A stretch of 64,000 nt of DNA from Ruminococcus sp. (lineage in GTDB: Bacteria; Bacillota; Clostridia; Oscillospirales; Ruminococcaceae). Below are positions 3,267 through 60,059 of this stretch, piece after piece. The notes under the pieces are model-generated. The model was not told the origin of the DNA. It saw only the letters and a list, made by a program, of their open reading frames with translations, and made no database searches. The number at the start of each line of letters is the position of its first letter. Position 1 is the first letter of the stretch. Where the stretch lies: NCBI GenBank assembly GCA_021200415.1, contig JAJQGO010000030.1:17630-81629 (forward strand). The letters are read 5' to 3'. The position numbers and the translations under genes were made by a program.

Positions 3267-3283
3267 GAACAATAATAAGTAAT

Positions 3284-3513
3284 GGAAAACGATGACGAGG
3301 AAGGCTATCCCTATATCCCGTTTCAGAGAGCAGCCGTTGGGTGCAAGGCTGTACGGCAGGGTGACGCACACCGCCTCCGAGTATGCCTAATAAGCGTCGG
3401 GCGCTCCCGTTACAGAGCCAATGAGATGCAGAGCTGATGTTCTGCGTGAATCAGGGTGGAACCACGATTTTTTCGTCCCTTGAGCCGTATTGCGGCTTGA
3501 GGGACTTTTTTGT
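3284..3513 (+). promoter_or_regulatory. T-box leader (tRNA-Thr-sensing, inferred) with terminator
   Basis: GATGACGAGGA start motif, AGAGAG motif, canonical AGGGTGGAACCACGATTTTTTCGTCCCT antiterminator/T-box core, terminator CCCTTGAGCCGTATTGCGGCTTGAGGGACTTTTTT. Downstream thrS. Candidate specifier ACC at 3370-3372. Confidence 0.92.
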
Positions 3514-7853: not shown

Positions 7854-7923
7854 GGCATCACCTCATGAAGCCTGCCTAAGGGCTTTGCCGTGTGCCTGCA
7901 CAGCAATTTCATGCGGTATTGCC
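7854..7923. repeat. Diverged short copy of the TIR element (copy F)
   Basis: GGCATCACCTCATGAAGCCTGCCTAAGGGCTTTGCCGTGTGCCTGCACAGCAATTTCATGCGGTATTGCC aligns along its length with copy D at 19046-19116. Confidence 0.7.
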
Positions 7924-12148: not shown

Positions 12149-12197
12149 GGAAAAATCTAACGGCGCATCTGTACGACAATCTTTGTGCGGTGTTGCC
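12149..12197. repeat. Right-end fragment of the TIR element (copy E)
   Basis: GGAAAAATCTAACGGCGCATCTGTACGACAATCTTTGTGCGGTGTTGCC, nearly identical to the right end of copy C. Confidence 0.85.
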
Positions 12198-19045: not shown

Positions 19046-19116
19046 GGTAACACCGCACAAAGCACGCCTGACGGCTTTGCCACGCATCTGCACGACAATC
19101 TTCGTGCGGTGCTACC
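19046..19116. repeat. Short internally deleted copy of the TIR element (copy D)
   Basis: GGTAACACCGCACAAAG...CTTCGTGCGGTGCTACC; TA on both flanks (gaTA|GGTAAC...GCTACC|TAct). Confidence 0.9.
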
Positions 19117-23375: not shown

Positions 23376-23409
23376 TCCCCGTGAAGTTCCGGCTTCACGG
23401 GTTTTTATT
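23376..23409 (+). terminator. Rho-independent terminator after the patatin gene
   Basis: CCCGTGAAGTTCCGGCTTCACGGGTTTTTATT. Confidence 0.8.
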
Positions 23410-23422
23410 ATAGGCAACACCG
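23403..23422. repeat. Left-end remnant of the TIR element (with flank)
   Basis: TTTTATTATAGGCAACACCG is a 20-bp identity with the flank plus left end of copy C at 59823-59842. Confidence 0.5.
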
Positions 23423-34797: not shown

Positions 34798-34987
34798 GGC
34801 AATACCGCACAAAGCACGCCTGACGGCTTTGCCGCACATCTGCTTATATATTTCCCGTCATCTTGCACAAAAACTCCTTGACATACGTCAGTATGCCTGC
34901 GTCACTTTTTATACAATCTGACGGAAAATCTAACTTAGTTTATACTCGAAGAGTACATCTGCACGACAATCTTTGTGCGGTATTACC
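34798..34987. mobile_element. TIR-bounded MITE-like element, copy A (190 bp)
   Basis: GGCAATACCGCACAAAG...CTTTGTGCGGTATTACC; shares its interior with copies B and C; carries an extra ~18 bp containing TACTCGAAGAGTA. Confidence 0.85.
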
Positions 34988-42398: not shown

Positions 42399-42571
42399 GG
42401 CAACACCGCACAAAGCACGCCTGACGGCTTTGCCGCACATCTGCTTTTATCTTTTCCGTCATCTTGCACAAAAACTCCTTGCCATACACAAAGTATGCCT
42501 GCGTCGCTTTTATACAATCTGACGAAAAATCTAATGGCGCATCTGCACGACAATCTTTGTGCGGTGTTACC
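42399..42571. mobile_element. TIR-bounded MITE-like element, copy B (173 bp)
   Basis: TTAA|GGCAACACCGCACAAAG...CTTTGTGCGGTGTTACC|TTAA. Confidence 0.9.
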
Positions 42572-59799: not shown

Positions 59800-59832
59800 G
59801 GTAAAACACCTTTCTGTATTGATTTTATTATA

Positions 59833-60004
59833 GGCAACACCGCACAAAGCACGCCTGACGGCTTTGCCGCACATCTGCTTGTATATTTTCCGTCATCTTG
59901 CACAAAAACTCCTTGACATACGTTAGTATGCCTGCGTCGCTTTTATACAATCTGACGAAAAATCTAACGGCGCATCTGCACGACAATCTTTGTGCGGTGT
60001 TGCC
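59833..60004. mobile_element. TIR-bounded MITE-like element, copy C (172 bp)
   Basis: ttaTA|GGCAACACCGCACAAAG...CTTTGTGCGGTGTTGCC|TAtat; perfect 17-bp TIR and TA on both flanks. Confidence 0.92.
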
Positions 60005-60059
60005 TATATTATACAGTATTATGGAAAAAAGTTCAATTCGCATATTTAACAATGAATTG

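Follow-up and report, generated by a model that had tools for sequence, protein, structure and literature searches.

A MITE family of Ruminococcus and other Oscillospirales, probably mobilised by IS5-family transposases and carrying a conserved predicted strand-specific fold

Copies of the element in the window

Scattered through the window, the whole stretch of 64,000 nucleotides of Ruminococcus sp. DNA analysed here (contig JAJQGO010000030.1), are short non-coding elements bounded by terminal inverted repeats (TIRs). Copy C starts with GGCAACACCGCACAAAG and ends with the exact reverse complement of that sequence, and two further long copies accompany it (Table 1), in one of which, the 190-bp copy, a 17-nt insert separates the outer from the inner stem. 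The 71-bp copy retains the TIRs, the outer stem and the side hairpin and is devoid of the inner core; the diverged 70-bp copy has the same layout. The half element is 98% identical to positions 125-172 of the 172-bp query. Overall, a 14-base end with at most two mismatches occurs 11 times in the window, compared with 1.2 times in shuffled sequence, and none of 100 shuffles reached 11.

The initial annotation of this DNA had listed these long and short copies from the letters alone, and all of them hold; a covariance model, as an independent check, detects the short ones too (E 2e-13 and 7e-7 for the copies starting at 19046 and 7854, respectively). It had also listed two fragments, of which the half element stands and the other, at 23403-23422, is weak and too short to rely on. 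Its 20 bases (TTTTATTATAGGCAACACCG) reproduce the junction at the left of copy C, ten TIR bases preceded by the ten bases that precede copy C; a terminator-like hairpin lies directly before them, and no element follows.

Table 1. Copies of the element and associated target duplications in the window (CM, covariance model score)
Feature	Position	Strand	Details
Copy C, full-length, 172 bp	59833..60004	- (stable-fold strand)	perfect 17-bp TIRs; CM 201.9 bits
Left target duplication of copy C, TATA	59829..59832	.	flank sequence
Right target duplication of copy C, TATA	60005..60008	.	flank sequence
Full-length copy, 173 bp	42399..42571	-	TTAA each side; CM 183.8 bits
Full-length copy, 190 bp	34798..34987	-	ATAA each side; CM 160.8 bits
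Short copy, 71 bp	19046..19116	-	flanks GATA/TACT, no intact duplication; CM 70.5 bits
Diverged short copy, 70 bp	7854..7923	-	flanks TTCC/TATG, no intact duplication; CM 39.8 bits
Right-hand half element	12149..12197	-	one intact TIR, 12184-12197

Distribution and size classes

A BLAST search of the 2.35 Mb host genome with the 172-bp sequence placed the element at 45 sites, 31 of them full-length, some of the remainder being two pieces of one copy. The 17-base end is found 54 + 55 (109) times genome-wide in the host, against 2 + 1 (3) times for a reversed control. BLAST further located the element in 16 of 35 genomes of the same genus and in none of 24 genomes sampled from other families; additional carriers are one Subdoligranulum variabile plasmid record and seven unverified fecal phage scaffolds. 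A covariance model built from 44 copies (R1) extends the family to 26 genera, with matches in 40 of the 247 genomes analysed from the order, the sample of copies being biased to the 172-bp query. Within a species the copies are 87-99% identical (small sample), and the groups are species-specific. The open-access literature searched contained no account of this family.

The elements span 46 to 268 bp, with 17-bp TIRs and chance open reading frames only. The size classes of 171-173 and 187-190 bp are joined by copies of 46, 56, 71, 81-83, 92-94, 147, 244 and 268 bp. Short copies have lost the inner hairpin and kept the ends, several of them with intact 4-bp duplications, and core-less copies of 46-83 bp likewise bear such duplications; the 244- and 268-bp copies have an additional hairpin inserted at the apex. 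The many copies, the target duplications and the species-specific sub-families agree with the initial view of this scattered, TIR-bounded non-coding family as a MITE.

In three copies (L063, host C33; L064, host C57; L174, G140) an inserted second palindrome, with CCTCTGTCA...TGACA and CCTCCCC...GGGGAG-like arms, is shared between genera and is probably another repeat family nested in the MITE. At another locus (L226, G255) a ten-base remnant of a terminal repeat (GGCAACACCT) adjoins an intact element, an arrangement consistent with insertion beside or into an older copy.

Target duplication and the source of the transposase

Direct repeats of 4 bp, such as TTAA, TTTA, TATA and ATAA, flank the copies. 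Flanks were compared for 86 copies, drawn from the host and other genomes of the genus and from a small number of plasmid and phage records. The outermost 4 bp are identical in 54 of these copies, compared with 15.8 expected from swapping left and right flanks between different copies, and none shows a 5-bp duplication. The flanks of all three long copies in the window follow this pattern.

The parent insertion sequence (IS) was sought by scanning the end GGCAAYACCGCACAA across the 247 genomes of the order, and the scan returned contigs in which a transposase gene follows the end. One contig of 1126 bp (L264) is exactly one whole IS with ends GGCAACACCGCACA and a 328-aa IS5 transposase, and a second copy measures 1134 bp (L241); their proteins, of 325-328 aa, match the IS5 transposase model NF033581 at E 1e-92 to 1e-95, and also PF01609 and PF05598. 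Further autonomous IS5-family elements carry the ends of the MITE (L282, L291, L298 and others). A scan of GTDB genomes for relatives yielded 80 loci, including Angelakisella massiliensis, Anaerotruncus colihominis, Oscillibacter and Ruminococcus. Most of the approximately 65 relatives inspected have GGCAAYACCGCACA-type ends 1.12-1.14 kb apart, a few being without clear ends, and many have an exact 4-bp duplication, for example TTAA, TTAG or TAAA. The search for a full-length IS with the same TIRs thus led to IS5-family elements of 1.12-1.14 kb in other Oscillospirales. MITE and IS share the GG-beginning ends and the duplications; the GGCAAYACCGCACA TIR and the TTAA/TTAG-like 4-bp duplication are common to the MITE and the roughly 1.13-kb IS (NF033581, transpos_IS5_4), but the IS encodes a transposase, whereas the MITE shares only about 14-17 bp at each end and has a structured, unrelated interior. 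Two other sets of candidate parents were rejected: none of the IS1380 (PF13701) and PF01609 transposases in 11 element-rich genomes had the ends, and half elements and single TIR sites in the genus proved to be ordinary genes or contig ends.

The initial annotation had favoured duplication of a TA target by an IS630/Tc1-mariner-type transposase. TA does flank copy C on both sides, as it does three copies of a related shell in genome G028 (TTGCTCCACC...), but the actual duplication is of 4 bp and TTAA-like (exact in 54 of 86 copies; ATAA, TTAA and TATA in the window, TTTA elsewhere), which excludes a TA duplication for this family. Since, moreover, the only autonomous elements found with matching ends encode IS5-family transposases (NF033581, E 1e-92), the IS630/Tc1-mariner reading is ruled out for the window family and retains a negligible probability. 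The MITE status of the family and its IS5 source are well supported.

It is appreciated that a candidate donor was not found in the host itself: a search of its genome gave no intact relative of the parent transposase and no match to it, so that recent activity there is not apparent. In 60 genomes of the same genus, the search found only one near-complete copy, with a stop (G024), together with fragments. The host copies were probably moved by a transposase that has since been lost or was provided by another element.

A conserved predicted strand-specific fold of the core

In copy C the minus strand of the window is predicted to fold at -91 kcal/mol into a near-full-length hairpin, as against -54 for its complement, and the difference between strands has the same direction in all 171-173 bp copies sampled. 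The predicted layout comprises one long hairpin, interrupted by two internal loops of tandem G·A, together with an apical hairpin and, in most long copies, a small side hairpin. In the alignments, changes between species keep this strand, and only this strand, able to fold in this way. For 44 copies, RNAalifold predicted 54 pairs, 33 of which show double-sided changes. Because a G-U pair reads as A-C in the complementary strand, a palindrome selected as double-stranded DNA would be expected to show the two equally often; the paired columns hold 293 G-U and 27 A-C cells, an approximately tenfold excess, and the comparison across genera gives 146 and 20. The tandem G·A pairs are present in 38 and 34 of the 44 sequences at columns 29/30 with 150/151, and in 40 and 37 at columns 70/71 with 126/127, and a DNA palindrome would not keep such loops.

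The fold also extends across genera. An alignment of sequence alone gave no consensus fold for copies with differing ends because their stems misalign, and a model-guided alignment was used instead. In that alignment of 28 copies from several families, which leans to the model by construction and counts cells instead of independent events, 94.8% of cells are paired, compared with 66.5% after shuffling and 38-48% with the partners slid. Conservation of a strand-specific fold in the core is thus well supported by these comparisons of predicted structure.

A known structured RNA would have offered another account of the element. A conserved strand-specific fold is indeed present, but no Rfam family matched it: at gathering score, Rfam 15 over the window gave only an unrelated T-box and a tRNA, and at a relaxed threshold three loci gave nothing plausible. 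A T-box leader lies at 3283-3483 of the window (RF00230, 93.6 bits).

Genomic position and the possible role of the core

Altogether, the family is in all likelihood an IS5-mobilised MITE with a conserved strand-specific fold, a judgement that leaves aside what the fold does. The elements would be mobilised in trans by IS5-family transposases from IS ending in GGCAAYACCGCACA; the transposase would bind both terminal repeats and move the piece, with duplication of an AT-rich 4-bp target, mostly TTAA. The anatomy of this scheme is seen in the copies, and the reaction is what we infer from it. The core between the TIRs does not look like an IS remnant.

Selection appears to act on the element itself and not on each insertion site, because the copies are oriented to their neighbouring genes seemingly at random and because short forms devoid of the core are mobile as well. 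With respect to the genes on either side, the folded strand lies same/same in 19 cases, opposite/opposite in 23, divergent in 18 and convergent in 11, a mixture that argues against a fixed regulatory role per site. Moreover, the element is not fixed at orthologous sites in either of the two loci open to comparison. There the flanks of the host copies, once joined, correspond to unbroken orthologous intergenic regions that contain neither the element nor an end of it (the L027 site in G314 and the L007 site in G033), in species so diverged that the exact pre-insertion TTAA is hidden.

The leading reading, a tentative one, is that the core would serve as a folded transcript upon read-through from neighbouring promoters, where it could make insertions tolerable or alter the stability of host transcripts. 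Its main rival is that a single DNA strand folds during replication and stimulates transposition, comparable with structured single-stranded transposition substrates. The strand specificity of the fold, the lack of orientation bias relative to genes and the apparent selection on the mobile lineage would all suit such a role. However, the duplications at core-less copies of 46-83 bp imply that the fold is not required, and the substrate of IS5-type DDE transposases is understood to be double-stranded ends; a role of the folded DNA strand is the less likely of the two readings.

The fold could also be functionless, inherited from a palindromic founder with G-U pairs and kept by template-switch correction and descent. 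Palindromic elements can self-correct, template-switch correction can preserve pairing, and copies within a species are close to one another, as this account would have it. Template-switch correction would mimic some of the covariation, but not the one-strand G-U excess, which persists between genera (146 versus 20), nor the G·A loops, which are non-palindromic in DNA and still conserved. Together with the double-sided changes, which across genera lead to several pair types, these features make a functionless fold improbable. Domestication as a host regulatory RNA at particular genes would agree with the RNA-like fold and the location between genes (a rough ORF caller placed 4 of 86 copies within an ORF), but it is disfavoured, and very improbable, given the inconsistent orientation and position relative to genes, the lack of an Rfam match and the absence of the element from the two orthologous sites. 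Folded-strand recombination of the integron attC type was set aside because target duplications are present.

Differing ends around the core and relation to known repeats

Across the 28-copy set, identity with the reference over the outer 18 bases falls from complete to less than 40%, and identity over the core lies between 49 and 88%. Copies of one genus have their own common ends: GGTTCARRTGTYA in G170 and G098, and TTGCTCCACCAATTAAACATTGCC in three copies of G028, each flanked by TA at either end. Some copies that keep the core have unrelated yet complementary ends and, in a few, a different target duplication; one copy of G188 ends in GGAACCTCTGAATAAATC and has a CTTA duplication. In the same genome, two contig ends start with GTAACCTCTGAATAAATC, followed by a reading frame opening with MKQETFTDIEYSFRKKK, which is similar to the beginning of an IS5-type gene of G188 (MEKQQSFTDIEYGQRRR, found with NF033581). 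This similarity suggests an IS5-family element as the owner of the second set of ends too, although a complete copy of such an element was not observed.

The core therefore seems able to change its terminal repeats and, we infer, the IS that mobilises it. That ends are exchanged is the least usual of the claims made here, and few families support it; the same differences may instead have arisen by gradual divergence. It is possible, though less likely than not, that the core is an independently inherited strand-specific module parasitising several IS families in turn, with ends and transposase exchanged and the interior conserved across the order.

MITEs are usually recognised by their conserved ends, the interior being variable or decayed, and other short palindromic mobile repeats include NEMIS/Correia, RUP and ERIC, which resemble the present MITE in form and differ in hosts, ends and target duplications. 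Structured mobile repeats are a known kind in the descriptions available for bcr1 and QMITE2. The former, from the Bacillus cereus group, is described in a stem-loop family list citing the original report as a repeat of approximately 150 bp with mobile-element characteristics and a conserved predicted secondary structure (PMC2267715); it is like the present MITE in size, mobility and structure, but has another sequence and host group, a comparison by description only. The latter, from Coxiella burnetii, combines TIRs, a core, direct repeats and a very stable predicted transcript hairpin (PMC10969869, citing PMC5896051), as does the present MITE, but its direct repeats are 7-9 bp long and not 4 bp, and in the parts of PMC10969869 available neither a core conserved across genera nor exchanged ends are described. 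The corresponding open-access accounts of bcr1 and QMITE2, as far as available, describe no conserved core with differing ends (PMC2267715, PMC10969869). The novelty lies in the interior: a structured core, specific to one strand, that seems able to change its TIRs.

The combination of a folded interior conserved over many genera with ends that differ among some of the copies suggests that the interior is under selection and that MITEs switch the transposase that mobilises them. One repeat family of gut Oscillospirales also gains a named source of transposase, together with a covariance model by which the family can be found.

Two further arrangements of ends were observed. Three copies of a related hairpin in G171 (L202-L204, with a ATACTGACGTAT apex) have at least 30 further upstream bases in common, and that G171 element accordingly has a different 5' boundary. 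In G263 (L168), two core-containing elements at 102-273 and 1501-1672 lie approximately 1.2 kb apart in opposite orientation, and their ends differ (GGCAGCAGCAAACGG and AGCAGTACCACGCG).
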